Source of the DNA: Candidatus Korarchaeum sp.
GTDB taxonomy: Archaea > Korarchaeota > Korarchaeia > Korarchaeales > Korarchaeaceae
Reading direction: 5' to 3'
Length of the DNA stretch: 46,884 nucleotides
NCBI GenBank assembly: GCA_020833055.1
Contig: JAJHQZ010000007.1
Location: 1 to 46,884 of the forward strand
A program made the translations under genes and the position numbers. Below the pieces are notes generated by a model. The model searched no databases and was not told the DNA's origin. It saw only the letters and a list, made by a program, of their open reading frames with translations. Shown here one piece after another: positions 4,935 through 19,120 of the stretch. Every line of letters begins with the position of its first letter. The stretch's first letter is position 1.

Positions 4935-5837
4935 TCAAGTCCCTACACTCTCAACGTACCTCTCTATCACTTCCATGAGGGCCTCCCTAGCCCTCTCCCT
5001 ATCCTTGACTCTCGCTATGTTATTGAGGACATCCACTAGGAGCGCTTTCACCTTACTCTCTGATGAGTAACGGGGGACCAAAGCGGCGCCTATCAGGCCC
5101 TCTCTGATCGCTATTATCAATCTCTTGTCCCTCATCTCTATCGTCTGCGGGATATCTTTGAGAGATTCCGTCGTATAATTCCTCACTAATGAGACGAAGG
5201 CGCTGAGCGTCAAGCTAGTTGCCGAACTCGTTGAAATTATCGGGTTCCCTTTCTCATCTAAAACGATCAGATCCTCTATCCTGAGGGGATGCGAGACTTC
5301 CTTGCCAGTCAGTCTCTCATAGATCCATGCGAAAGCTTCGAATAGACCGAAGCCCGTTAAAGCGCTAGCCCAGACTATCTGCCAAGTCATCCCCTCCAAC
5401 TTCGTCAATTCCAATGCCTCTATCACTTCCATCACTGTCGCGGCATTCTCAAGATCCGCTTTGTTAGCGATTATTAGTAGGGGCTTACTCTTCTTTATCA
5501 AGGAGACTATCCTCCAGAGCTCCTCCTTAGCCTCAGGGAATCTCTCCCTATCGGCTGAGTCCACAACGAAGATGATAGCATCGGCCTTCTCAGCGTATTC
5601 CTCCCACATCCCCCTCAGGGCCTTCTGGCCCCCGAGGTCCCACACGTTGAACTCGAGCTCCCTGACCTTGAACCTCTCGAAATTAGCTCCGACTGTCGGT
5701 GCGGTTACTCCAGGCTCCCCTGTGAGCAAGTAATTCAACATCGTCGTTTTCCCGGCGCCATCCAATCCTAAGATAACTAGAGTAGTCGGCTTCTTAAAGA
5801 GCCCGAATATACCTGAAACGAGCCTCTTGAACGACAC
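4935..5837 (-). CDS. Arf-like small GTPase with C-terminal roadblock/longin-like domain
   Basis: From the chosen GTG start the protein has about 300 residues. The first 180 form an Arf/Sar-type G domain: GLDGAGKTT (P-loop, about 24-32), a switch I Thr in APTVG, WDLGGQ (G3, about 66-71), NKAD (G4, about 125-128) and ASALTG (G5). WDLGGQ is the hallmark of Arf-family proteins. Residues about 200-300 form an extra alpha/beta domain (VLDEKGNPIIS strand pair, helix, IIAIREGLIGAALVP strand pair, helix) with the strand order of roadblock/longin folds. The frame opens at TTG 5882, but a TATA box at 5858-5870 lies 25-30 nt from GTG 5837, and the Arf-like start VSFKRLVSGIFGLF begins there. No myristoylation glycine is seen. 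Confidence 0.85.
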   Translation of the reverse strand: MSFKRLVSGIFGLFKKPTTLVILGLDGAGKTTMLNYLLTGEPGVTAPTVGANFERFKVRELEFNVWDLGGQKALRGMWEEYAEKADAIIFVVDSADRERFPEAKEELWRIVSLIKKSKPLLIIANKADLENAATVMEVIEALELTKLEGMTWQIVWASALTGFGLFEAFAWIYERLTGKEVSHPLRIEDLIVLDEKGNPIISTSSATSLTLSAFVSLVRNYTTESLKDIPQTIEMRDKRLIIAIREGLIGAALVPRYSSESKVKALLVDVLNNIARVKDRERAREALMEVIERYVESVGT

Positions 5838-5857
5838 ATGAGTACAGTTTACCCTCC

Positions 5858-5870
5858 AAAATATAAATTT
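5858..5870 (-). promoter_or_regulatory. TATA box before the Arf-like GTPase
   Basis: AAATTTATATTTT on the minus strand lies inside the upstream part of the open frame and about 25-30 nt from GTG 5837. It supports a leaderless or very short leader start there, giving the GTPase a promoter in addition to the roadblock gene's. Confidence 0.5.
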
Positions 5871-5882
5871 TTCCTCCCGCAA

Positions 5883-6245
5883 TTAATGGAAAAATTCATT
5901 CAGTCTACGCAGGACCTCATTTATCGCTTCCGAGTGCTCTCCATAAGATCCTTTAACGTTCAACATCAGTATCACGTCCCTGATCACTCTCTTAATTATT
6001 ATGAAACCCCTCTCCCCGAGTAAGAGGACGCTCGGTTCCTCTAGGTTTAAGTGGGCTGAGATGCTCCTAGAGATCTCCGCTATTGCTGAGAACGATGCGA
6101 CAAGAAAATCCTCGCTCGGTGATTGTTTGGAATCAGAGTATAAGACTATCCCATCTGATGTAAATATCTTCATTGATATTAGGGAATCTTTCAACAAATT
6201 CTTTACATCACTTATGAGAGACTCGAACTCCCCCGACGGCTCCAT
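5883..6245 (-). CDS. roadblock/LC7 domain protein
   Basis: A single-domain protein of about 120 residues. It has the roadblock/LC7 layout: helix, strand pair (MKIFTSDGIVLYSDS), long helix (LVASFSAIAEISRSISAHL), strands (SVLLLGERGFIIIKRV, VILMLNVKG) and a final helix (SEAINEVLRRLNEF). Roadblock dimers act as GTPase regulators or scaffolds, for example MglB on MglA and Ragulator on Rag. It is the first gene of an operon whose second gene, a few tens of bases on, is an Arf-like GTPase, so that GTPase is the likely partner. The start could be GTG 6251 or ATG 6245. A CTTTAAAG box at 6268-6275 favours a leaderless ATG. Confidence 0.8.
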   Translation of the reverse strand: MEPSGEFESLISDVKNLLKDSLISMKIFTSDGIVLYSDSKQSPSEDFLVASFSAIAEISRSISAHLNLEEPSVLLLGERGFIIIKRVIRDVILMLNVKGSYGEHSEAINEVLRRLNEFFH

Positions 6246-6467
6246 CGTCACCAGGCCCGAAGGGAAACTTTAAAGTCGTTTCGAGAGGCATTAAGGGTAA
6301 AGAGTATTAAAAAAATCGAACGTTCCTATGAATTATCAGATATTCTCTGTAATTCTCAGTGAAATTTTTACTAAAAATTGTGGTTTAAAGAAGAATATTG
6401 GAGATATAATCAATATTCAGTTATCTCGAGAGCTTTTTAATGGAGAACGAGCTTATTGAGGAGGCTC

Positions 6468-7001
6468 ATGAGCGAGATATCCTTCGTAGAGAGAGTGAGC
6501 TTCTCCTGGGATGAAAGAGGGAAAATTATTAGTCTTGGTGGGTTAAGAGCTAATATTTTTAATGTTGGTTGCGGGGAGAGTTGTGTAACTCTTATAGAAT
6601 TTGAGTTGATAATGCCGCCGAGGGGTCGCATCGAGTTCTGCGGCTCCGATATATCGGATTTAGGCATTCGAATGGGGAAGACGAGAATATTGGTAATACA
6701 TAAACCATGCGAGGTCAAATTTGGAAGCAATATTTACAAAATCCCGGAGGTGATATCAGAACTCCCGGGAATGCTCAGGGTCAGGGGCGTGACTTACAGC
6801 TTCCAGGAGCTAGGAATGGGGGCTAGGATAAGGACTCTCTACAATAAGGAACCCAGAGTCTATCTCCTCATAACCCCAACTCATGCCACACTCCGCTCTA
6901 AGGATGGGAAGGAGCTAGTCATACCTCCGGAACCCCTGCTTGTTGCGACACCCGGAGGTAGCGAGTTGGAAATAACTGGCGTGACTCTGAAGCTCCCATA
7001 A
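6468..7001 (+). CDS. beta-rich protein of unknown function
   Basis: A 177-residue soluble protein, rich in predicted strands, with four cysteines in its first half. I recognise no family. The frame opens at TTG 6456, but GAGGAGG at 6459-6465 is a ribosome site for ATG 6468, which I use. A TTTTTAA box near 6432-6438 fits a promoter. It lies between the GTPase operon and the coiled-coil genes and is transcribed away from the former. Whether it joins their function cannot be told from sequence. Confidence 0.6.
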   Translation: MSEISFVERVSFSWDERGKIISLGGLRANIFNVGCGESCVTLIEFELIMPPRGRIEFCGSDISDLGIRMGKTRILVIHKPCEVKFGSNIYKIPEVISELPGMLRVRGVTYSFQELGMGARIRTLYNKEPRVYLLITPTHATLRSKDGKELVIPPEPLLVATPGGSELEITGVTLKLP

Positions 7002-7039
7002 ACTTCTATGGATCCATTTACTACTTCACTTTAAAGGGG

Positions 7040-7789
7040 CTAGCTCTTACTCAGTCCGCTCATAACTTCATCGAATAACTTCCTCTTCAGATCCTCTAAG
7101 TACCTAATCGAAGCCCCCGATAGCCCCGGGAATCTCTCGACCAGGGACTTCACCTTATCTAAAGTATCCAGAGCGGACCTTATCCTTTCCCTATCTTCTT
7201 CATTCAAATCCGCGAAGAACTCCCTCAAAGCGGCTCTCATATTCCCTATCTCCTTGATAACTCTCTCAGGAGACCCCTCCTGAGGTATATGTCTGACTAT
7301 TAGCTCTATAGTTGATGCGAGGAGCTCCGGAGGCAGCAGCTCTACCTTCCCCATCATACCCTTAAGTTGCCCTGAGAGGAAAACTGCGGAGAGGCAGTCC
7401 TCACAGTACTTCACTACCTCTATCAGAGTGTTTATGTAAATCTCCAACTCGCTCAAAGATCTCACTTTGATATCCTTGAGCCTCTTCATCATCTCATTAA
7501 CTAGAGGCTGGTATCTGTTCTTCAGGATCGAGGAGACTACAGAGGGATCTATCGCCTTGCTGTAAAGCACTTCCTCCTTAGAGAGCTTTTCTATGAGTGC
7601 CGATATATCCCTCTTGATAGAGTTAAGCTCCGTCAGGATTTCCCCATCTAAGAACTGATGCGATGCCTTTAGCAACCTCTCAGTGAATTTATACTCATTC
7701 ACAATATCTTCTATCATTTCATACATTGAGATCTCAAATAAAGAAGCTTCAAGCCTCTCAAATTCACTCCCGAAGAATTCCTCCAGCAT
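7040..7789 (-). CDS. helical protein of unknown function, divergent from the coiled-coil/GTPase operon
   Basis: This 249-residue protein is almost entirely alpha-helical and charged, with leucine-rich amphipathic stretches, no signal peptide and no membrane segment. I know of no family. Its ATG lies about 27 nt from the centre of the palindromic TATA box at 7811-7820, so it is probably leaderless. It shares that promoter with the coiled-coil gene on the other strand. Co-regulation with that gene and its GTPase suggests a structural or adaptor role, which is inference. Confidence 0.6.
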   Translation of the reverse strand: MLEEFFGSEFERLEASLFEISMYEMIEDIVNEYKFTERLLKASHQFLDGEILTELNSIKRDISALIEKLSKEEVLYSKAIDPSVVSSILKNRYQPLVNEMMKRLKDIKVRSLSELEIYINTLIEVVKYCEDCLSAVFLSGQLKGMMGKVELLPPELLASTIELIVRHIPQEGSPERVIKEIGNMRAALREFFADLNEEDRERIRSALDTLDKVKSLVERFPGLSGASIRYLEDLKRKLFDEVMSGLSKS

Positions 7790-7810
7790 TAGTTGAAACG
7801 GGCCTACAAT

Positions 7811-7820
7811 TTTTATAAAA
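7811..7820. promoter_or_regulatory. palindromic TATA box shared by two divergent genes
   Basis: TTTTATAAAA is a perfect palindrome. Its centre is 26.5 nt from ATG 7789 (minus strand) and 28.5 nt from ATG 7844 (plus strand), the spacing expected for archaeal leaderless transcripts in both directions. It decides the start of both genes. Confidence 0.7.
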
Positions 7821-7843
7821 CTTGCCTATCACTGATGGAGTGT

Positions 7844-9412
7844 ATGGAATCTGAGAACCCATGGGAGGCGCTGAGGGCCTCGCTGCTGGAGGCTGGGTAC
7901 AGTTTAGACAAGATAGATAAGCTCGAGAGCTTCATGAAGAAGGATGAACTATTCCCATTGTTTGAGAAAGTACTGGAAAAAGTGAAGAAGCTGGGAGAAA
8001 TCTCTTCAGAGGTCGAAAAGGAGACAGAGAGCGGGGAGGATATATCGAACAGAGCTAATCTGCTATTCCAGTCAGTGAAGGGAGTAGCGATTAGCCTGAT
8101 AGGGGATCCGGCTTATATGAGGTCGTTCCTCAGGAATAAGGGGAAGATTAAGGAAGTGAGGAGGATCTTAGAGGTCACGCTCGAGGAAGCGAACTCTCTG
8201 GGGAGGGAGCTCGTCAATAAAGTAAATGCATATATACGTGAGAGAGGGCTGGATATAGAGGAACTGAGGAGTTATGAGGAGATACCAGCAGCTCTGAGCT
8301 TCTTGAGGATCTTAAAGAGATCTAAGGAAGCTCAGGAGCAGAAAGCCGAGCATAAAGAGGAGCAGAGGAAGGTAAAGGAGGAAGCTATATCATCTCTAAA
8401 CGAAGCATTCGAAAAATTGAGGTCAATTGAAGAAGAGCTAGATCTGATGGGAGTGAGATATGAAAGACTCTCACATTATTTAGAATTGCGAGAAAGGTTC
8501 ATTGAGAGGATTCAGGGGATCGAGGAAGGGATCCCGCAGAAGTATTTGAAGAATATCACCTCCAGGCTCGCAGAAGTTGAGAATGATTCTAAGAAGCTGA
8601 TTCAAATTTCCCAAAAGCTGATAGATCTGAAGGCTAGTATTGAGGAGATGAAGGGGGATCTCTTAGAGAAGATGGAGAGAATAGAGGAGCTCGGGAAGTT
8701 CAAGGAGATAATCCCCTATATAGGGTTGGATTTCCCCAAGATACCCCTCCTAGTAAGATCTAAGATACATATAGAATCCCTGAGGAGGGAAGTAGAGAGG
8801 TTGAACAGGATAAGTTCGCTAATTAAGAGCGTCATAGATGAGCTGGAGTATATCCCTAAGGGTACAAAGCTAGATACAAGTAAGATCTCATTGGATTCAA
8901 CTGAGTCCTTCTTGGATAGCCTCAATAACTGCCTCAGGGCCTCCAGGCTCTCTTATGGGATGCCCGAGACGGTCAGCTATACTGGGATAATGAGTGAAAT
9001 ATTGGAGCTATATCCGAAATGGAGGGAAAAAATAATATCACTTCTCAGGGAGAGAGGGGAAATATCTCTCCAAGATTTGAAGTTCATTCCCGGGAGCTGG
9101 AGGCCCTGGGTCCTCAGGAACCTGACTGATGAGGGGATCGTAGTAGTTAACGAGGATAAGGTAGCCATGAGGATAATCCCTGAGGAAATGAGGAAATTGG
9201 AGATTGAGATAGAGGTAATAGAGGATATGGTATCTGATTTAGGAGTAATGCTCCCAAATTTGGATGATATGGGCATAAAGAGGATCAGAGAGGACTTCGA
9301 GAGGGCGAAGTCCTTATTCATGATGGGGAGGATCTCTGAGTACAGGGAGCTGATATCCCAGCTCAGATCCAGGGTGAGTGAAGTGAAGGTGCAGCTAGGT
9401 GCTAAAGGATGA
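7844..9412 (+). CDS. large coiled-coil protein with C-terminal winged-helix-like segment
   Basis: About 520 residues. The body is a chain of long amphipathic helices with heptad-like spacing (densest at about 180-340 of the open frame). A segment near residues 420-470 (LRERGEISLQDLKFIP...LRNLTDEGIVVVNEDK) looks like a winged helix, followed by another helical stretch. No membrane segment is visible. The frame opens at TTG 7793 and has ATGs at 7835 and 7844. The palindromic TATA box at 7811-7820 is centred 28 nt before ATG 7844, so I choose 7844 as a leaderless start. Its last four bases overlap the next gene, a small GTPase, pointing to coupled synthesis and a likely scaffold-GTPase pair. Confidence 0.7.
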   Translation: MESENPWEALRASLLEAGYSLDKIDKLESFMKKDELFPLFEKVLEKVKKLGEISSEVEKETESGEDISNRANLLFQSVKGVAISLIGDPAYMRSFLRNKGKIKEVRRILEVTLEEANSLGRELVNKVNAYIRERGLDIEELRSYEEIPAALSFLRILKRSKEAQEQKAEHKEEQRKVKEEAISSLNEAFEKLRSIEEELDLMGVRYERLSHYLELRERFIERIQGIEEGIPQKYLKNITSRLAEVENDSKKLIQISQKLIDLKASIEEMKGDLLEKMERIEELGKFKEIIPYIGLDFPKIPLLVRSKIHIESLRREVERLNRISSLIKSVIDELEYIPKGTKLDTSKISLDSTESFLDSLNNCLRASRLSYGMPETVSYTGIMSEILELYPKWREKIISLLRERGEISLQDLKFIPGSWRPWVLRNLTDEGIVVVNEDKVAMRIIPEEMRKLEIEIEVIEDMVSDLGVMLPNLDDMGIKRIREDFERAKSLFMMGRISEYRELISQLRSRVSEVKVQLGAKG

Positions 9413-10023
9413 GGAAGATCTCCCTAGCTATAATAGGCCCTCATCAAGCTGGAAAGAGCACTTTCATAAGGAGGCTGGATCCATCAGCCGTTAGGATGGA
9501 TTATGAGAAAGGCACTCTATCCACTACAGTCGGTTTCGATTACGGAATAATCTTCTGGGACGCTACGAAGGATAAGCTCTACCCTAAGGAGAGTATCGAG
9601 GACCTAGATCCCTTCGATGAGATATGGAAGGTCACGCTGACTGGAACTCCGGGGCAGATAGCGTTCTCTTACGTCAGGAAGGCTCTAGTTAAAGGTAAGG
9701 ATGGCGTCATAATGATAGTAGACAGTACTCAACCAGTCCAATTGGTCTACGCACTCGGCCAGTATCAGGAAGCTAGGGAAGTCCTCCCCCCGGGATTCCC
9801 ATTCCTAGTCCTGGCGAATAAGCAGGATCTCCCGGACGCTAAGCCCCCGGATGTGATAAAGAGCCTCCTGGGGATGGAAGCGGAAGTTATCCCCATCTCA
9901 GCTTTACGGGGGGATGGCGTTCAGGAGGCGTTCATCCACTTCCTCAAGGTCGTGAGGACCGATATAATGAGAAGATCTATTCAATCCTATGCTGAAGCGA
10001 GGATCGGGGTTCGAAAATTATGA
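9409..10023 (+). CDS. MglA/COG2229-type small GTPase
   Basis: A 204-residue GTPase. P-loop GPHQAGKST (about 10-18), switch I TTVGFDYG, G3 region LTGTPGQIAF with Gly-Gln after the loop, NKQDL (G4) and ISALRGDG (G5). A Thr-Pro-Gly replaces the DxxG aspartate. TGTPGQ is typical of the predicted GTPases (COG2229) related to MglA and Gtr/Rag, not of Arf. It has no lipid anchor or membrane segment. It overlaps the coiled-coil gene by ATGA and is the second small GTPase within 5 kb. The unrelated 76-residue gene on the other strand overlaps its end by 6 bp. Confidence 0.85.
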   Translation: MRKISLAIIGPHQAGKSTFIRRLDPSAVRMDYEKGTLSTTVGFDYGIIFWDATKDKLYPKESIEDLDPFDEIWKVTLTGTPGQIAFSYVRKALVKGKDGVIMIVDSTQPVQLVYALGQYQEAREVLPPGFPFLVLANKQDLPDAKPPDVIKSLLGMEAEVIPISALRGDGVQEAFIHFLKVVRTDIMRRSIQSYAEARIGVRKL

Positions 10024-10905: not shown

Positions 10906-10932
10906 ATGCTTGAGGTGGAGGTGATCTTAATC

Positions 10933-12255
10933 ATGAGGGAAAGAGTAGTAGTCCTATTAGCGCTCCTAATCATGCTCACACCTTTAATGGCTGGATCTCA
11001 AGGGAGCATTACGGTGGGATTCGATAAGAAGCACGGACTTCCCTCAGCGAAGTTCCCAGAGCTGAAGAAGTTATTAGAGGGCGAGGGCTATGTAGTTAAG
11101 GATGTCGAGACGATATCCGAGGATATAGATATATTAGTGATCGTGAACCAAACTGCTCCATTGAGCGAGGGTGAGATCAGCAAGCTGGACTCTTATGTTA
11201 GGGCTGGCCATTCTTTACTCATAGTCAGGAACATTGTAGGTGTGGTATTCAATGCTATGCCTACTAATGATTCTCTGTGCACGATAAAGGTCATAGGTGG
11301 CTGCGATCCATTCGAGGCTACTGTTAACCCGACTTACTTCAAGTACTCAAGAGAAGTGATAGTCAAAGGGAGTTCATTGAGCCTCTCAGTCAACTTGTCG
11401 AGGTTCCTGATCAGTAAGGAAGTATGGATAGATAAGGATAGGAATGGGAGGTTCACTGAGACGGACCCGCGTCAGAGTAACTTAGTCTTAATGGTGGGGC
11501 AGAACTACGGGAGGGGGAGGGTAGTCGTATCCTCAGTAGATTTCTTCAGTGGGGCTCTCCTCTCTCAGAAGGATAACAAGTTATTCACTAGAGAACTCTT
11601 CTCCTGGCTCTCATCCCCCTCCTTAGCGAAGAGGAAGTATGAGGAAGTGGGATCTAAGCTCTCCAGCTTCGTGAACATGAAGGGCGATTTAGATAGAGTT
11701 GGAGGGGATTCTTCAGTCCTCTTGAGCATCGCGAATAGCATCAATAAGAGCCTTGAGAGCGTCAAGGCTATGATAGATAGGGGAGCTAGTGAGGAAGCTT
11801 TAAGCCAGCTTGAAGCGATTGAGAGGAAGATAAATGACTATATGAGCTTCGTTTCAAAGATAGTGGTTGTTGAGACGAAGTTATCTCAGTTCGCATCTTA
11901 CCTCGAGGAGACGAGGAAGAGCGAGCCCAACATATCCTTGGATAAGTTCTATGACGAGGTCTCGAGGCTCAACTCGGAGAAGAGAAATGTATATGAGAAG
12001 TGGTCAGCTGGGGACCTCTCGGGGGCTAATCAGACAGCTAACTCCATCCTGAATAGGGTAGAGGAGCTGAGCAATGAGGCGAAATCTTACGTAGCTGAGC
12101 AGAAGGAGAGGATCAAGAGGATAGAGGAGGAGAAGCAGAGGAACGTGATGATAGCTTTGCTAGCTGTAGTGATAGTAGTAATAGTTGTAGTTGGCTTCCT
12201 GCTGTACAGGAGGAGGAAGGAGGAGTATAGGGTAGAGATAAGACCTCCGGGGTGA
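10933..12255 (+). CDS. secreted, C-terminally membrane-anchored protein
   Basis: About 440 residues. There is an N-terminal signal peptide (VVVLLALLIMLTPLMAG), then an extracellular alpha/beta domain of about 200 residues resembling the DUF4350/class-I-amidotransferase-like fold (ILVIVNQTAPLSEGEI, SLLIVRNIVGV). A long helical stalk (about 240-400) follows, then one membrane helix and a basic RRRKEE tail. The frame opens at ATG 10906, but GGAGGTGATC at 10917-10926 is correctly spaced for ATG 10933, which also gives a clean signal peptide. Asn-X-Ser/Thr sites suggest surface glycosylation. It forms a pair with the small gene 4 bp downstream. Function is unknown. Confidence 0.75.
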   Translation: MRERVVVLLALLIMLTPLMAGSQGSITVGFDKKHGLPSAKFPELKKLLEGEGYVVKDVETISEDIDILVIVNQTAPLSEGEISKLDSYVRAGHSLLIVRNIVGVVFNAMPTNDSLCTIKVIGGCDPFEATVNPTYFKYSREVIVKGSSLSLSVNLSRFLISKEVWIDKDRNGRFTETDPRQSNLVLMVGQNYGRGRVVVSSVDFFSGALLSQKDNKLFTRELFSWLSSPSLAKRKYEEVGSKLSSFVNMKGDLDRVGGDSSVLLSIANSINKSLESVKAMIDRGASEEALSQLEAIERKINDYMSFVSKIVVVETKLSQFASYLEETRKSEPNISLDKFYDEVSRLNSEKRNVYEKWSAGDLSGANQTANSILNRVEELSNEAKSYVAEQKERIKRIEEEKQRNVMIALLAVVIVVIVVVGFLLYRRRKEEYRVEIRPPG

Positions 12256-12259
12256 GAGG

Positions 12260-12538
12260 ATGTACTCAGATCCCAGATTGTCCTTCAAGCTCGGTGAGTT
12301 CATCCAGTCCGTTGAGGATAAGCTCATCTACTCCAAGCCGAAAGTAGCTGATCTAGTGAGGGAGCTCCAGAGACTCAATGAGATGCTTGAGGAGGAGGAC
12401 AGGGAGATACCCAACTCCTGGATAGATTACCTCAAGCAGAACTACGGGAGCCTAGAGGAGCTGGATCCAGACGATAGGAAGGCCTTGGTTCAGGATTTAG
12501 AGGGGATCAAGCAATCGATAATGAATAAGATCAAGTGA
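12260..12538 (+). CDS. small acidic helical protein
   Basis: A 92-residue soluble helical protein without a known domain. It follows the membrane-anchored protein gene by 4 bp, so the two are co-transcribed, and may bind that protein's short cytoplasmic tail (inference). The ribosome site GGGGTGAGAGG sits over the upstream stop. It ends directly beside the end of the convergent HTH/LAGLIDADG-like gene. Confidence 0.6.
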   Translation: MYSDPRLSFKLGEFIQSVEDKLIYSKPKVADLVRELQRLNEMLEEEDREIPNSWIDYLKQNYGSLEELDPDDRKALVQDLEGIKQSIMNKIK

Positions 12539-13447
12539 CTATCTCCCCAGGAGCTGGGAGATCTCCCTTATTTTTCTTTGAGATGTGAAGCCTATCGAGT
12601 AAAGCAAAGCCTCGAGGACAGCTCTCCTGCATATCTCGATGTATATTATGTTATCTGAGAGTAGCCTGGGCCTCTCCTCCATATTAACCCCTACCCTCGC
12701 GTATAAGCCCCTGAGCCTCTCTATGAACTTGAGCATCCCCTCCATGTTGAACGTCTTGAAGTAGAACCTCGCGCACCTCCTAGAGGGGACGCTCCTGAAG
12801 AGCCTTCCGCTCTGGAAAGTCTTCAGGAATTGAGATGGATAATTCTCGAGCCAATATGGGATATCCCAACCGTCATAAAACTCCCTCTTCGTCGGAGCCC
12901 CGAAGAGGAGCAATACTACTCCGAACTGAGATAATAGATAGACCTTCCTCTCCCTCCTATTGATAGAGATATCAGATGCCTCTATATCGAAGAGCCTCTT
13001 AGATAGTTCTATGATGTGGGAGAGTTGGAAGTCATCATCGTACCTCAGGGATATCGTAGCGTTTCCCTTCCCCACCTTGAACTTCGAGCTGCTCGAGACA
13101 GCATAACCTATGAAGGAAGCTGTTGCTTCGAGATCGAAATTAGGCTTGAGGAACTTCCTTATGCCCATGCCCTCGATAGATCTGAGGACGTCCCATGTAT
13201 CTATCCTAGCTAGTTCAGCTAGTTTCAGGATTAAGATGAGGGGCATAGGGGAGCTCGGCGTAGACATGATCTTCATTACTTTAACCAAGGGGATGCCTGT
13301 CTCCTTCGCTATGTTTATGTAATTGCTCACTTTGAGCGACCTGACGACGAGTTCCTGCCTCATCTCGAGGCTAAGCTTCACGGGGTAGAGGGGGGGTGCT
13401 CTATTGAAGCTCAGCTCTATCCTCTCGGGGCCCTCATCCGATGCCAT
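12539..13447 (-). CDS. HTH protein with LAGLIDADG-like domains (possible regulator)
   Basis: A 302-residue protein. Residues about 30-90 are helical and look like a helix-turn-helix (NYINIAKETGIPLVKVMKIM). Residues about 110-280 resemble two divergent LAGLIDADG homing-endonuclease repeats (ATASFIGYAVSSSSKFKVG with alternating strands; YFKTFNMEGMLKFIERLRGLYARVGV). The acidic active-site residues expected at the ends of the LAGLIDADG helices are not evident. That fits a DNA-binding protein that has lost nuclease activity, as in WhiA-type regulators. A T-rich box at about 13468-13480 fits a leaderless ATG 13447. It lies immediately downstream of the FtsZ operon and could regulate it; this is a guess. 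Confidence 0.45.
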   Translation of the reverse strand: MASDEGPERIELSFNRAPPLYPVKLSLEMRQELVVRSLKVSNYINIAKETGIPLVKVMKIMSTPSSPMPLILILKLAELARIDTWDVLRSIEGMGIRKFLKPNFDLEATASFIGYAVSSSSKFKVGKGNATISLRYDDDFQLSHIIELSKRLFDIEASDISINRRERKVYLLSQFGVVLLLFGAPTKREFYDGWDIPYWLENYPSQFLKTFQSGRLFRSVPSRRCARFYFKTFNMEGMLKFIERLRGLYARVGVNMEERPRLLSDNIIYIEICRRAVLEALLYSIGFTSQRKIREISQLLGR

Positions 13448-13554: not shown

Positions 13555-14523
13555 TTACCTCGTAGCTGAGATCCCGAGCAGGCCTTCTAGAGTTGGGGAC
13601 CTCACGCCCGATGCTATTATAGTTATCCTGGGCTCGTTGAGGTCTTCAGCTATTCTGAACCCCCAGTAGACCCTCTCGAGGAGGTAATCCTCGGTTAGGA
13701 GCTTAGTAGCAGAGCCAGCTTCCTCCAAGCTCGTATTGGGAGTCGCCTGCAAGTAAACTAGTGCGGAATCAGCTTCCTTTATCTCAGCATCGAGCAATAT
13801 GTTCCCTAGGGCTATCTTAGCTGCATCAGCAACCCTCCCGCCGACTCCAAGCCCAACAGCACCTAAGCCGGCCTCTCTAACGACAGCCTCGAAGTCAGCG
13901 AAGCTTATGCTGACCACATGGGGCATGTAGAACAGGTTAGCGAGATCTGAGATGACAGCTGCTAGCAATGAGTCAGCGTACTTAAATGCATATTGAACCT
14001 GTATGTACCCGATCTTCTTGCTCAATATGTCATTCAAGTTCACTATCGTGAGATCAGCTACCCCCATTATCCTCGAGAGGCCATACCTAGCGTTATTCAC
14101 CTTCCCCAATCCCTCCCAAGAGAAGGGGAAGGAGACTAAAGCTATCCTTATTACGTCGGGGAACCTGTCTCTAACCGCGGAGAGTATGGGAGCGATTCCT
14201 CCTGAAGCTGTTCCTCCTCCTAGCCCTCCAGTCACTATGAGGACGTGCGGCCTGCCTATAGCTGCCATTATCCTATCCAGATCAGACATTATGGCCCTCT
14301 CACCCACATTGGGGTTGCCTCCGCTACCGAAACCGCTAGTCACAGTTTCCCCGACTAAGAGCTTGACATCTGATTTGACTGCCTTTAGGTGATTGGCTTC
14401 AGTATGTATTGCTATCGTTTTCACGGGCGCACCCACTTCCTTGAGCCTGTTTAAAGTATTGCAACCGGCTCCTCCTACGCCTACGACTGTCATCGTCACC
14501 CTAGCCTCAGGAGCTCCTGACAT
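13555..14523 (-). CDS. FtsZ-family protein E (last of five; altered nucleotide pocket)
   Basis: A 322-residue tubulin/FtsZ fold. The glycine loop VVGVGGAGCNTLNRL and tubulin signature GLGGGTASGG (about 102-111 of the open frame) are present. Pocket residues differ from FtsZ: the usual NTD after strand 2 is HTE (IAIHTEANHL), and GTGTG reads GTASG. The T7 loop reads SISFAD (about 207-212): the first catalytic Asp is Ser, while the second (D212) is kept. There is no C-terminal FtsZ tail. The frame opens at TTG 14529; ATG 14523 is preferred. The upstream FtsZ stop is at 14526-14528, so the genes are coupled. The family is certain, but a classical FtsZ role is doubtful. Confidence 0.9.
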   Translation of the reverse strand: MSGAPEARVTMTVVGVGGAGCNTLNRLKEVGAPVKTIAIHTEANHLKAVKSDVKLLVGETVTSGFGSGGNPNVGERAIMSDLDRIMAAIGRPHVLIVTGGLGGGTASGGIAPILSAVRDRFPDVIRIALVSFPFSWEGLGKVNNARYGLSRIMGVADLTIVNLNDILSKKIGYIQVQYAFKYADSLLAAVISDLANLFYMPHVVSISFADFEAVVREAGLGAVGLGVGGRVADAAKIALGNILLDAEIKEADSALVYLQATPNTSLEEAGSATKLLTEDYLLERVYWGFRIAEDLNEPRITIIASGVRSPTLEGLLGISATR

Positions 14524-14525
14524 AT

Positions 14526-15515
14526 TCAACCACCCCCCATAGAGCTCAAGAATTCCTCCACCATCTTAGATTTGACACCGAAAGTGTAGACAGTGACTTT
14601 AGGCGTCGTCATCTCTATGCTCGGCTTGAGTCCGAAGTAAACCTCTGGTATGCTTAAGTTCGTCGTCAGGACATCTTGGACGTACGTCATCCCCTCCACT
14701 GAGACAGTTGTCTCAGCGGACTCGAGTATCCCGACTACACCCTTAGCCCCTTTGTGATTAGCATCTCCGAATGGATCGACTAAGGAGGACTCGAATGCCT
14801 CTCTTACTGTCCTCCCCTCCCCGAATCCAGCGTAACCTAAGCCAGATCCCTTAGCGAGTTCCTTCATCACCGCGAAGTCGACGTTCTGCATACCAGGAAG
14901 CGGTGAGAGGTTCTGGAGGGAAGCGAGTCCTCTTATAACGTTGAAGAGCCTATCGTCCATCATCTTATATGCTCTAGTCAGCGGGACGTTCGTGAACTTC
15001 CTCTTCAGGACGTCATTGAAAGCTACCCAAGTAACATCGGAGAGGTCTATTATCTCGGAGAGCCCGTACTTCGCGTTGTTCATCCTCACCTCTCCCTCGC
15101 TCGAGAATGGTATAACGACGTAGCTTATCGTTAGGGCATTCGGTAAGCTCTCCTTTATAGTCTCAGCTAACGTAACTATTCCTCCTGTTCCCGCACCTCC
15201 TCCTAAACCAGCTAAGAGTACTATGAGCTCCCTATCGCTCAGCATAGATATCAGGTTCTCCTTAACAGCCTCCATGGCTTTCTTACCATTCTCTATAGTT
15301 CTAGCGCTCCTTCCTCCTAGGAAAGACTCACCTGCGAGCACCTTATGATCCGCTTTAGTTGCGCTGAGAGAGGCGGCATCGGTATTAACTGCTATCAGCT
15401 TCGCATCCGCGAAACCGGTCCTCTTGATGTTCGTTATCATGTTGCAACCTGCTCCTCCTATGCCCACTACAGCCAGCTTGAGCTGGGAAGCGGGCTCCCC
15501 TCTCCTCCAACTCAT
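14526..15515 (-). CDS. FtsZ-family protein D (T7 loop lacks second Asp)
   Basis: A 329-residue FtsZ-family protein. Nucleotide side: VVGIGGAGCNMITNI, IAVNTDAASL and GLGGGAGTGG (about 103-112) are close to FtsZ. T7 loop: NVDFAV (211-216) keeps the first Asp but has Val where FtsZ has the catalytic second Asp. It probably binds GTP but cannot supply the full hydrolysis apparatus to its neighbour in a filament. It has no C-terminal tail peptide. GAGGAGG precedes ATG 15515, and the upstream PRC-barrel gene stops inside the ATGA overlap. Confidence 0.92.
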   Translation of the reverse strand: MSWRRGEPASQLKLAVVGIGGAGCNMITNIKRTGFADAKLIAVNTDAASLSATKADHKVLAGESFLGGRSARTIENGKKAMEAVKENLISMLSDRELIVLLAGLGGGAGTGGIVTLAETIKESLPNALTISYVVIPFSSEGEVRMNNAKYGLSEIIDLSDVTWVAFNDVLKRKFTNVPLTRAYKMMDDRLFNVIRGLASLQNLSPLPGMQNVDFAVMKELAKGSGLGYAGFGEGRTVREAFESSLVDPFGDANHKGAKGVVGILESAETTVSVEGMTYVQDVLTTNLSIPEVYFGLKPSIEMTTPKVTVYTFGVKSKMVEEFLSSMGGG

Positions 15516-15748
15516 TTCCTCCTCACCTCCACAATACCTTTAACTAAAACGACATCACCAACAGCTAAAATATTTGATGGGGGGAGCGTGTACTCCAAGA
15601 CTTTCTCACTCCCTCCTCTGACTATCTTCACCCTGACGAGGAGGCTAGCCTTTCCCTCCTGATCTATGACGACGTCATCCACTACTCCTACCCTCCTCCC
15701 CGAGCTATCTATTACCTCCTTCCCCACTACTTCCTCCCTCTTGATCAT
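15512..15748 (-). CDS. PRC-barrel domain protein inside the FtsZ operon
   Basis: A 78-residue single-domain protein with the PRC-barrel pattern: GKEVIDSSGRRVGVVDDVVID followed by beta strands (LLVRVKIVRG, VLEYTLPPSNILAVGDVVLV). PRC-barrel proteins occur in archaeal division: CdvA has one at its N-terminus, and haloarchaeal CdpB proteins bind the FtsZ anchor SepF. The start is ATG 15748 behind GGAGGGG and forming ATGA with the upstream FtsZ stop; a longer frame from 15769 would overlap more and has no ribosome site. Sitting between two FtsZ genes, it is a candidate filament cofactor or membrane-linker partner (inference). Confidence 0.82.
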   Translation of the reverse strand: MIKREEVVGKEVIDSSGRRVGVVDDVVIDQEGKASLLVRVKIVRGGSEKVLEYTLPPSNILAVGDVVLVKGIVEVRRK

Positions 15749-16743
15749 AATACCCCTCCTTGCAGCCATCTATCGACTAGCTCAGATCTAACTCCAGTCG
15801 CTAGGAGCATTATCTTGGGTTCATAGAGCTTCCAGTTCGGCTTTATCCCCCAGAATATGCTCATTATATTGTAATCGCTCGAGAGAGTCTGGGGTATCCT
15901 ATCGAGCTCCCTCATCACTAACTGCGATTGATTGCCCTCGACGTAAACTATAGCTCCCTTAGCGTTCCTTATATCTGCCTGACTGTAATTCGCAGCTAAT
16001 GCGTTTCTGAAAGCCTCTACAGCGCTTCTCCCTCTCCCTATTCCTACGAAGCCCAAGCCAGAGCCCCTAACTAAGACTTCCATATTGCTGTAATCTATGT
16101 TCACTAGACCCGGCTGCGGTACTATGTCCTGGAGACCCACTATAGAATCTATTATGTCGACTAGGAGCTTATCCATCTCTCTGAAAGCCTGGCTAATGGG
16201 CAAATTGCCCGCTCTCTCCTTCAATAAGTCGTTAGCGTTGACTATAGTCATATCAGCAGAGTCGAGCATCCTGGAGAGGCCCCACTGGGCGTTCCTTATC
16301 CTAGTAGGCCCCTCAGATATGAAAGGTAAAGTGATTATCCCTATGACTATCTTGTCCGGGAACTTCTCCTTGATAGCTTCAGCTATCGTCGGCCCAGCTC
16401 CTGTCCCTGTACCTCCTCCCATCCCCGCAGTTATCATTATGAGCTCCTTATCCCTCAGCGGAGCTAATATCTTGTCCATATCCTGCTCAGCTATCATCCT
16501 ACCTAGCTCTGGTGAACCAGCAGCTCCCCTCCCCTTACGAGCGCCCTCTCCGATCAGTATCTTTATGTCCGCGCTTATCCTCTGCAGCGTAGGGGCATCA
16601 GTATTGACTGCGACAGTCGGGACTCTGACGCCGTACCTCTTCACATTATTCACTGTGTTATTACCGCATCCCCCAACGCCCACTAACACCATCTTGAGGG
16701 CGGAGAGCTCGGAAGCCCTAGCTAACTCAGATCTAGACATCAT
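15745..16743 (-). CDS. FtsZ-family protein C (most canonical nucleotide pocket)
   Basis: A 332-residue protein, closest of the five to standard FtsZ on the nucleotide side: VGVGGCGNNTVNNV, VAVNTDAPTL and the textbook GMGGGTGTG (about 107-115), plus NAQWGLSRML and VNANDLL in the core helices. The T7 loop reads NIDYSN (215-220): the first Asp is kept and the second, catalytic one is Asn. The C-terminus ends soon after the activation domain, without the FtsZ tail that binds SepF/FtsA-type anchors. The start ATG 16743 has GAGGTGA upstream. It overlaps the PRC-barrel start by ATGA. Confidence 0.93.
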   Translation of the reverse strand: MMSRSELARASELSALKMVLVGVGGCGNNTVNNVKRYGVRVPTVAVNTDAPTLQRISADIKILIGEGARKGRGAAGSPELGRMIAEQDMDKILAPLRDKELIMITAGMGGGTGTGAGPTIAEAIKEKFPDKIVIGIITLPFISEGPTRIRNAQWGLSRMLDSADMTIVNANDLLKERAGNLPISQAFREMDKLLVDIIDSIVGLQDIVPQPGLVNIDYSNMEVLVRGSGLGFVGIGRGRSAVEAFRNALAANYSQADIRNAKGAIVYVEGNQSQLVMRELDRIPQTLSSDYNIMSIFWGIKPNWKLYEPKIMLLATGVRSELVDRWLQGGVL

Positions 16744-16754
16744 AGAAGCTCACC

Positions 16755-17048
16755 TCATAATGTACTTCCCATCGATGCCATCTTAGACTCTAAAATCCTC
16801 ATAAATGTCTTCCTTAACTCCTCCATGTCTGTTACGCTCCCTCCCTTGGCTTCTATGTATTCCTTGACCGCCATCAAGGGGGGTACGTATGGGAACTTCT
16901 CCTGCCTCGCGAACCACGCGAGTGAGACCTCCCCCTTGTTCTCATCTAAGTACCTGTTGATCAGTTCGGCAATCGATACTCTAGGTTCAGCTTGAACGGG
17001 AGGTTGAACAGGAGGTTGCTCCTCCTTCTTCCTACGGAACATATCCAT
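16755..17048 (-). CDS. small protein with basic N-terminus and Pro-Gln linker, in FtsZ operon
   Basis: A 97-residue protein of unknown family. The N-terminus MDMFRRKKEEQ is basic, followed by a Pro/Gln linker (PPVQPPVQAEP, about 12-22). A compact helical domain of about 70 residues (SIAELINRYLDENKG, MEELRKTFMRILESK) follows. A short basic tip plus flexible linker is what a filament tether or adaptor might have, and none of the five FtsZ proteins has its own tail peptide. That role is speculation. It is placed 11 bp after one FtsZ gene and about 12 bp before the next, so it is surely in the operon. Confidence 0.7.
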   Translation of the reverse strand: MDMFRRKKEEQPPVQPPVQAEPRVSIAELINRYLDENKGEVSLAWFARQEKFPYVPPLMAVKEYIEAKGGSVTDMEELRKTFMRILESKMASMGSTL

Positions 17049-17059
17049 CCCCCCTCAAC

Positions 17060-18085
17060 TCATAAACCTAACTCAGCTAAAAAATCATCCACGTAGTGAG
17101 ATCTAACTTGAGTCACGAGTAAGTTGACCCTCACATCGGGGTACTCGAAAGTAGGCCTGACTCCCATGAACACAGTGGGGATCCTGTACCTTCTGCTCAA
17201 TATATCAGTCGCTTCCCTCATCTGATCCACCCTCAGGTCGACGGACTTACCCTCGAAATATATTATAGCTCCCTTAGCCTCCGTTAAATCGCATTTAGCA
17301 TAATCATCTTGCAGGGCGTCATCGAAAGCCTCGAATATATAGCGGCCCCTCCCCACTCCTATGAATCCCAAGCCAGACTGATAGGATATCCTCGCGAAAT
17401 TGCTCAGATCGACGTTAACGTAACCAGGTCCTGTCTCCGTGCTCTGCATCTTAACTAGAGCATAGATGCTCCTCTCTATCTTCCTATTGACCATCGAGAA
17501 TGCATAATTGAGGTCCACTCCTTTCGCTTTCTCCATAGCTAAGTCGTTAGCATTCACTACAGTCACATCTGAAACTTCTAATGTCTCCCTCAATGAGAAT
17601 TGGGCATTCCTCCTCCTCTCCTCTCCCTCCTCCCTCATCGGTAATGTCACTACTGAGATCTTTATAGCGTCCCTCTTCCTCAGGCCTATCTCCCTCATGA
17701 GCACTGGGAGACCTCCTGAACCTGTTCCGCCTCCCATCCCAGCTATCCCTATGACTACGTCTACGTTCTCATCCAAAGCCCTTAATACGCTCTCTATGTC
17801 CTCCTCCATCGCCTCTCTCCCTAGGTCAGGTACTCCCTGAGCTCCCCTTCCCTTATGAGTGTACTTGCCTATCAGGACCTTCTCATCGGCATCGGTCTTC
17901 TTCAGTACAGCGGAATCTGTATTGACAGCTATCGTCTTTACGTTCTTCGGGAACTTCTTGTAAAATGCGCTTATTATGTTATTGCCGCACCCTCCGATGC
18001 CCACTATATTTATCCTAGCCTCAGTGGCTTTCTCTACACTCTCCAACCCCCTATCGACCATCCTTCCCCTAATAGCCATTTCCAT
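17060..18085 (-). CDS. FtsZ-family protein B (T7 loop NVDLSN)
   Basis: About 340 residues. Nucleotide side: IVGIGGCGNNIISAF, IAVNTDSAVL and GMGGGTGSGG (about 117-126) are intact. The T7 loop reads NVDLSN (225-230 of the open frame): the first Asp is present and the second is Asn. NVDLS also recalls the tubulin T7 wording (NVDLTE in alpha, NADLRK in beta), where the residue at this place decides whether the interface hydrolyses GTP. The frame opens at GTG 18088; ATG 18085 shares a base with the upstream stop (TGATG). There is no C-terminal tail. It is the second gene of the operon. Confidence 0.92.
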   Translation of the reverse strand: MEMAIRGRMVDRGLESVEKATEARINIVGIGGCGNNIISAFYKKFPKNVKTIAVNTDSAVLKKTDADEKVLIGKYTHKGRGAQGVPDLGREAMEEDIESVLRALDENVDVVIGIAGMGGGTGSGGLPVLMREIGLRKRDAIKISVVTLPMREEGEERRRNAQFSLRETLEVSDVTVVNANDLAMEKAKGVDLNYAFSMVNRKIERSIYALVKMQSTETGPGYVNVDLSNFARISYQSGLGFIGVGRGRYIFEAFDDALQDDYAKCDLTEAKGAIIYFEGKSVDLRVDQMREATDILSRRYRIPTVFMGVRPTFEYPDVRVNLLVTQVRSHYVDDFLAELGL

Positions 18086-19098
18086 CACTCCCTCAAGAGC
18101 TCCTTAACATCGCCTATCATTTCCCTCACGAAGGGAGAGTCGACGCCAGTAGCGTAAACGAATGACTCCGGTGTTCTGAGCATGGGGTTCAATCTAGCTC
18201 CGAATGAGATTCTCTCGACATCGTACTTCTCCGTTATGAGCCTAGGCCCGTCTATGACCTCCGAGAGGCTCGCAGTTGGCGGTATCTTGAGGTAGAGGAG
18301 GTAGCCCGAGGCCGACGTAGGATCTGCGTCTAGCAACCTAGTATCTATAGCGCTCTCAACAGCTTTCCTGACGCTCCTGTGGGAACCTATGCCTATGAAC
18401 CCTATCCCGGATCTCTCTATCATCCCCTTGAGATCAGGGAAGTCGAGCCTCTGCAAAGTGTCCCTGGGATCCAGCATCTCAACTATGTAATTTATGGCCA
18501 TCTTCAGTATATTGTCCATCCTCGCGTAAGCGACTTGAGCAGGCATCTCACCGAACTTCTCAAGGAGGACATCGTTCATGTTCACCACGACACTATCGTT
18601 CACGACGACTATTTCCCTCAATCCCGACTGGACATTCTTCAGTTTCGTCTGCCCTTCATACCTGAAGGGAATCGTTACGATAGATATCATAGCCGGGGCT
18701 TTATCCCCGTACTGATCCCTTATCGCCTTAAGGAGATATGGCAATCCGCCGCTTCCCATACCCCCGCCAAGTCCAGCTACAGCTATGAGGAGGTCGCAGA
18801 CATCTAGAGTCCTTATAACCTTGTCTAAATCCTCATCGACTGCTTTCTGGGCTAGGCTTATATCTCCTCCACTTCCTCTCCCCCTGAGCGTATTCTCCCC
18901 GACTTGAATGATCTCATGTGCCTTGACCTGCCTTAGGGCATTCAGATCAGAGTCTAAAGCGACTAATTTCGCCAATTCCATCCCAGATCTTGCCAAACTA
19001 TCAATAGCCTTTATCCCCGCCCCTCCAACACCCAAAACAGTGATTTTAGTTGGTATTTCCTCAAACCTCGTCGGAAGACCGGCCCTACTGCTAGCCAT
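18085..19098 (-). CDS. FtsZ-family protein A (first gene; complete T7 loop, divergent pocket)
   Basis: About 337 residues. The T7 loop reads RLDFPD (219-224 of the open frame), with both catalytic aspartates present. The nucleotide pocket is the most divergent: the glycine loop is VLGVGGAGIKAIDSL (the usual Asn is gone), NTD is DSD (LVALDSDLNAL) and the signature is GLGGGMGSGG (about 111-120). It may bind nucleotide weakly or differently yet act on a neighbour's GTP. GGGAGG stands ahead of ATG 19098; GTG 19104 is in frame but too near that site. As first gene behind the operon promoter it may be made in the greatest amount. Confidence 0.9.
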   Translation of the reverse strand: MASSRAGLPTRFEEIPTKITVLGVGGAGIKAIDSLARSGMELAKLVALDSDLNALRQVKAHEIIQVGENTLRGRGSGGDISLAQKAVDEDLDKVIRTLDVCDLLIAVAGLGGGMGSGGLPYLLKAIRDQYGDKAPAMISIVTIPFRYEGQTKLKNVQSGLREIVVVNDSVVVNMNDVLLEKFGEMPAQVAYARMDNILKMAINYIVEMLDPRDTLQRLDFPDLKGMIERSGIGFIGIGSHRSVRKAVESAIDTRLLDADPTSASGYLLYLKIPPTASLSEVIDGPRLITEKYDVERISFGARLNPMLRTPESFVYATGVDSPFVREMIGDVKELLRE

Positions 19099-19120
19099 CT
19101 TCACTTACCTCCCGTTTCAT

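Follow-up and report, generated by a model that had tools for sequence, protein, structure and literature searches.

A conserved seven-gene cassette with five FtsZ paralogues in Korarchaeota, possibly encoding a mixed FtsZ filament

A cassette of seven genes, five of which encode divergent FtsZ paralogues (here A to E), is present in Candidatus Korarchaeum sp. and in related Korarchaeota of two genera. It was studied in a window of 46,884 nucleotides, the whole stretch of DNA analyzed, from a genome of 1.39 Mb in 25 contigs. The catalytic residues that are combined in ordinary FtsZ proteins are distributed unequally over the five paralogues. Based on this distribution, we consider an obligate mixed FtsZ filament, with B and C as the holders of GTP and A as the main donor of the T7 loop, to be a tentative reading with a probability of about 0.45. 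The interpretation of the earlier note, which proposed active sites split over the set of paralogues, is thus partly supported.

Gene content, family membership and distribution of the cassette

The cassette genes lie on the minus strand between positions 19104 and 13555, in the order A, B, x97, C, PRC, D, E. The first gene encodes protein A (339 aa, 18085..19104), which starts with GTG, has an in-frame ATG at 19098, and has orthologues in five other genomes. It is followed by the genes for protein B (342 aa, 17060..18088), the conserved helical protein x97 of 97 aa with a charged N-terminus (FRRKKE; 16755..17048), protein C (332 aa, 15745..16743), a PRC-barrel protein of 85 aa (15512..15769; PF05239, E=4.4e-7, over the cut-off, with orthologues), protein D (329 aa, 14526..15515) and protein E (324 aa, 13555..14529). 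Neighbouring genes are separated by gaps or overlaps of at most 12 bases, including overlaps of 4 bases for A/B, PRC/D and D/E, except for C and the PRC-barrel gene, which overlap by 25 bases. Given this spacing, the seven genes read as a single translationally coupled operon. Five FtsZ paralogues in one operon had been described in the earlier note, and the open reading frames and quoted motifs were confirmed; the genes between B and C (x97) and between C and D (PRC-barrel) were absent from its list.

All five paralogues are full-length and exceed the cut-off for the Pfam Tubulin/FtsZ GTPase domain, while the FtsZ_C domain is matched over the cut-off by E and weakly, below the cut-off, by A. 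Their TIGR00065 scores (166-227 bits) do not reach the curated cut-off of 295 bits for the FtsZ equivalog. The best match of C in the PDB is the archaeal FtsZ1 of M. jannaschii (1w58/1fsz, E about 2e-58), and tubulins match C weakly in the same search (E 5e-9 or weaker). Judged by sequence, A-E are FtsZ proteins and not closer to tubulin or BtubA/B. Two further FtsZ genes of the canonical FtsZ1 and FtsZ2 types (C1:283504 and C1:202072), as well as SepF, are encoded in the same genome.

Among the 29 Korarchaeota genomes searched, the cassette was found in six: the present one, G010 (a single contig of 1,590,757 bases, which we take to be Ca. Korarchaeum cryptofilum OPF8), G011, G012, G005 (MAG record CALJEO01) and G021 (MAG record QMVU01, another genus). 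The gene order is identical in the six genomes as far as the contigs extend; E was found on the contig of neither G011 nor G005, G005 lacks D as well, and E of G021 is represented by an N-terminal piece. There are near-complete genomes of the same genus that are devoid of the cassette, and G001 possesses the flanking genes without it. The cassette was not seen outside Korarchaeota in a search of 394 genomes, in which the B, C, D and E proteins of the cassette (E <= 5.2e-77) were set apart from the best other FtsZ (1.3e-72); as this profile derived from B and C, A scored within the range of ordinary FtsZ proteins. The literature searched contains no description of the cassette, but the 2008 K. 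cryptofilum genome paper was outside its reach, so an earlier mention of the copies is possible.

A mobile or viral origin was also considered; all matches in the scan of viral contigs were relatives with 25-42% identity (29-34% among the long matches), and the cassette type was not among them. FtsZ relatives, mostly 29-34% identical to C, are encoded by 75 IMG/VR contigs (L141-L215), and both T7 aspartates are kept in all 51 distinct proteins of this group that were read.

Residue states, phylogeny and selection

Residues are numbered here as in S. aureus FtsZ, in which the upper subunit contributes N208, D210 and D213 through its T7 loop, and the lower one N44 and D46 (through Mg waters) together with G72 and R143 (PMC8936486). 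The attacking water is held by the two T7 aspartates, of which D210 is the swinging catalytic one, and either D210N or D213N alone abolishes assembly (PMC8936486). The residues at positions 208, 210 and 213 are R-D-D in A (RxDxxD), N-D-N in B and C (NVDLSN and NIDYSN), N-D-V in D (NVDFAV) and S-S-D in E (SISFAD). The intact NxDxxD motif, with N208, D210 and D213 together, is therefore present in none of the five. The states of A-D in G021 are the same as here; the T7 loop of E is not on the G021 contig.

The replacement of the second T7 aspartate in B, C and D, proposed earlier from the present sequence, is found in every cassette genome (N, N and V/I; D has Val here and Ile in G010), including that of the other genus, and persists in relatives with as little as 57-67% identity. 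The comparative outcome that the note had named as a refutation, T7 changes not kept in relatives, thus did not occur. Position 213 is occupied by Asn, Val or Ile in 19 of 19 B, C and D rows and by Asp or Glu in 84 of 84 non-cassette FtsZ/tubulin relatives with a readable T7 loop, so the change is not attributable to chance. Both catalytic T7 aspartates are found in A only, where they are kept in 6/6 genomes with N208 replaced by Arg. As suggested in the earlier note, A and E share D213; however, E has lost N208 and D210. These losses, which include the swinging catalytic aspartate, make E an unlikely donor for hydrolysis and eliminate it as an equal of A in this role, so that the proposed supply of hydrolysis by A and/or E is narrowed to A.

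On the nucleotide side, 29 positions are invariant in canonical FtsZ, of which 28 are kept in C, 25-27 in B, 25 in E, 24 in D and 22 in A (25 in A of G021). The suggestion that B, C and D have all kept an FtsZ-type pocket is borne out for C, the most canonical of the five, and largely for B. It does not extend to D, whose status as an intact GTP pocket is weakened by the replacement of the T4 Thr with Ala (Ser in the other genus) and, in both genera, by a changed T3 loop that is one residue shorter (GRSAR). The pockets of A and E are changed in the present genome, as had been noted. E (HTE, GGGTASG) is thus altered on both faces. The pocket of A (GIK, DSD, GGGMGSG) is degraded in five of the six genomes and almost normal in the distant G021 (GNN, NTD, GGGTGSG), which makes the changes in A lineage-specific and derived; most simply, A would have lost its pocket after the cassette originated. 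R143K was rejected as an additional mark of A and E, since the canonical FtsZs of the same genome also have Lys at this position.

In the phylogenetic tree, one of the checks suggested earlier, A-E form a single clade separate from FtsZ1 and FtsZ2 (support 100/99), although the placement of this clade relative to FtsZ1 and FtsZ2 is unsure, with long stem branches and a tool warning on long-branch joins. Each paralogue forms a supported clade of its own, into which the sequence from the other genus falls for A-D. B, C and D are united in a single clade (100/98; SH-aLRT 97.9 after removal of the T7 columns), and a sister relationship of A and E is not rejected (p-AU 0.29). The loss of D213 is therefore most simply explained by one inherited event in the B/C/D ancestor rather than by three, and the complementarity carries less statistical weight than three losses would. 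The notion of complementary losses as independent events was not upheld, with a single loss at the base of B/C/D and a later loss of the pocket in A. Recent tandem duplication is ruled out, as the paralogues are ~30-41% identical and older than the split of the genera.

In comparison with their G012 orthologues, A-E show 90-96% amino acid identity and dN/dS of 0.019-0.042, versus 88-89% and 0.051-0.057 for the canonical FtsZ1 and FtsZ2, with dS near or above saturation in this comparison; the genes flanking the cassette are 55-81% identical. The closer G010 gives the same picture (dN/dS 0.024-0.057 for A-E). All five paralogues are constrained in their present state by strong purifying selection. 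Decay of redundant copies is excluded by the dN/dS of 0.02-0.06, E being the most constrained of the five (about 0.02) despite the changes on both of its faces.

Missing tails, small proteins and neighbouring genes

A-E end just past the FtsZ_C core and contain neither a C-terminal linker nor a GID-type SepF-binding peptide. By contrast, the FtsZ2 C-terminus is FGIDEL in this genome and LGIDEL in relatives, and the GID-type motif binds archaeal SepF (PMC8178401). Without such a tail, the cassette proteins probably need another anchor, and the PRC-barrel and 97-aa proteins would probably link the filament to the membrane or to partners. In Haloferax, FtsZ is recruited by PRC-barrel proteins with SepF (PMC11188069), and by analogy the PRC-barrel protein of the cassette is a plausible candidate for the anchor link; two other PRC proteins are encoded elsewhere in this genome. 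For x97, no Pfam family, PDB relative or meaningful fold match was found with a low-confidence model (pLDDT 68), and we regard it as a candidate adaptor.

Downstream of E, the cassette-linked gene p302 (12539..13447, minus strand) encodes a protein without a recognisable family. Its low-confidence model, which gave no meaningful fold match, is confident only in the N-terminal helical, HTH-like part (residues about 21-80), suggesting a candidate regulator. The identity of p302 is 92% to G010, 71% to G012 and about 30% to G021. It adjoins the cassette in both genera, being divergent and upstream of A in the other genus. Convergent to p302, the region 10906-12538 encodes a protein of 449 aa that has an apparent signal peptide, a C-terminal TM segment and weak ABC_transp_aux/DUF4350 similarity, as well as a 92-aa protein. 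This gene pair, a possible membrane partner, is kept in G010 and G012 and was not found in the matching region of the cassette-less G001. Further along, genes for an Arf-family GTPase, a small Ras-like GTPase and a coiled-coil protein of 539 aa that weakly resembles Rad50 are located together at 4935-10023, and relatives of these genes are also present in G001.

A possible mixed filament and its alternatives

In the proposed mechanism, the cassette would encode one accessory cytoskeletal filament of several FtsZ-type subunits, apart from the FtsZ1/FtsZ2/SepF division machine. B and C, and less surely D, would bind GTP in their own pockets but could not complete the active sites of one another, since the second aspartate is missing from their T7 loops. 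As the T7 loop of A is the only one with both catalytic aspartates, GTP would be cut only where it sits on the nucleotide of a B, C or D subunit. The remaining interfaces would stay GTP-bound and stable, like the intradimer interface of alpha/beta tubulin, and E would serve as a conserved structural subunit. The best sequence evidence for action of the T7 loop in trans is its retention in A: a protein that keeps both aspartates despite losing its pocket in five of six genomes should use them on a neighbouring subunit. A mixed filament is also favoured by the fixed order of the seven genes, the single A-E clade, the retained loss of D213, the low dN/dS and the missing tails. On the other side, A of the other genus, with its near-normal pocket, could polymerise alone, and the Arg at position 208 of A may likewise count against this reading. 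E. coli FtsZ with D212A or D212G still forms filaments (PMC4383033), so B-D need not require A.

The same mutants lend some weight to a rather unlikely alternative, a static scaffold for cell shape made of mixed or separate filaments, in which the loss of D213 and the pocket changes have switched hydrolysis off. At least one catalytic-site change is indeed found in every member in this lineage, E. coli FtsZ(D212A) combines slow hydrolysis with filament formation (PMC4383033), and S. aureus FtsZ mutants with GTPase reduced about sixfold form stabilised straight filaments (PMC8936486). Had hydrolysis been abandoned, however, neither the two T7 aspartates of A in 6/6 genomes nor the 28 of 29 positions in C would be expected. 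It is also unlikely that A-E act on the canonical ring, co-assembling with FtsZ1 and FtsZ2 as poisoning, capping or bridging subunits to which the canonical proteins supply an intact T7 loop. Such a role would suit tail-less subunits riding on tailed partners and a cassette with a PRC-barrel gene of the kind that acts with SepF in Haloferax (PMC11188069), in a genome that has FtsZ1, FtsZ2 and SepF. Yet the long separate branch of the cassette, its five-fold split and the constant order of its genes point to a distinct assembly, and most Korarchaeota live without it.

The overlapping genes and their order across genera make it quite improbable that A-E are five merely co-expressed proteins that act separately as homopolymers or non-polymerising nucleotide sensors, even though gene clustering alone is no proof of a complex and the residue changes might stem from slower rates or from a function other than GTP hydrolysis. 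Since D210N and D213N block assembly of the S. aureus protein, B-D are unlikely to be ordinary homopolymers; the D213N state occurs naturally in B and C. The mixed filament in its fullest form, namely a five-subunit obligate prokaryotic FtsZ heteropolymer arisen independently of tubulin, with A as a dedicated T7 donor no longer binding GTP, an independently invented split-interface principle and a PRC-barrel/x97 anchor replacing SepF, is doubtful, though we regard it as a serious possibility.

Microtubules are typified by interfaces that alternate between active and inactive, an asymmetry whose evolution from an FtsZ that assembles with itself has yet to be explained. In alpha/beta-tubulin, whether an interface hydrolyses or not is set by the residue corresponding to D213, which is Glu254 in alpha and Lys252 in beta. 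Two stages may be preserved in living relatives, with a near-normal pocket of A in the other genus and a lost pocket with a kept T7 loop in the Korarchaeum clade. The idea is directly testable by mixing the subunits, five small and probably thermostable proteins from one operon; if real, the filament would add a cytoskeleton not described before to a lineage whose cell biology has hardly been studied.

Several known systems share features with the cassette. The archaeal FtsZ1 and FtsZ2 of H. volcanii and Odinarchaeota have the fold and pocket motifs in common with A-E, which differ in their separate clade, missing tails, five-gene arrangement in one operon and T7 and pocket losses, and which occur beside a canonical pair. 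Alpha/beta-tubulin, BtubA/B and Asgard AtubA/B likewise consist of paralogous subunits differing at the D213 position; A-E, in contrast, are FtsZ-like in sequence and number five rather than two, and their heteropolymer is a predicted one. The paralogous chloroplast FtsZ1 and FtsZ2, only two in number, co-assemble according to works cited in PMC8142252, and the T7 aspartate of AtFtsZ1, mutated as D275A (PMC8142252), is conserved there; B, C and D lack this residue naturally. Like A-E, the CetZ proteins and further divergent tubulin-like families of archaea are extra paralogues beside the division FtsZ; the divergent archaeal paralogues examined are 23-31% identical to A-E and have Asp or Glu at position 213 where the T7 loop is readable. 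A different multi-paralogue cluster was observed in G029, an archaeon of another phylum, where three adjacent divergent tubulin-like genes (L043, 8554-12680) encode non-canonical T7 loops, one of them of the VDASE type.
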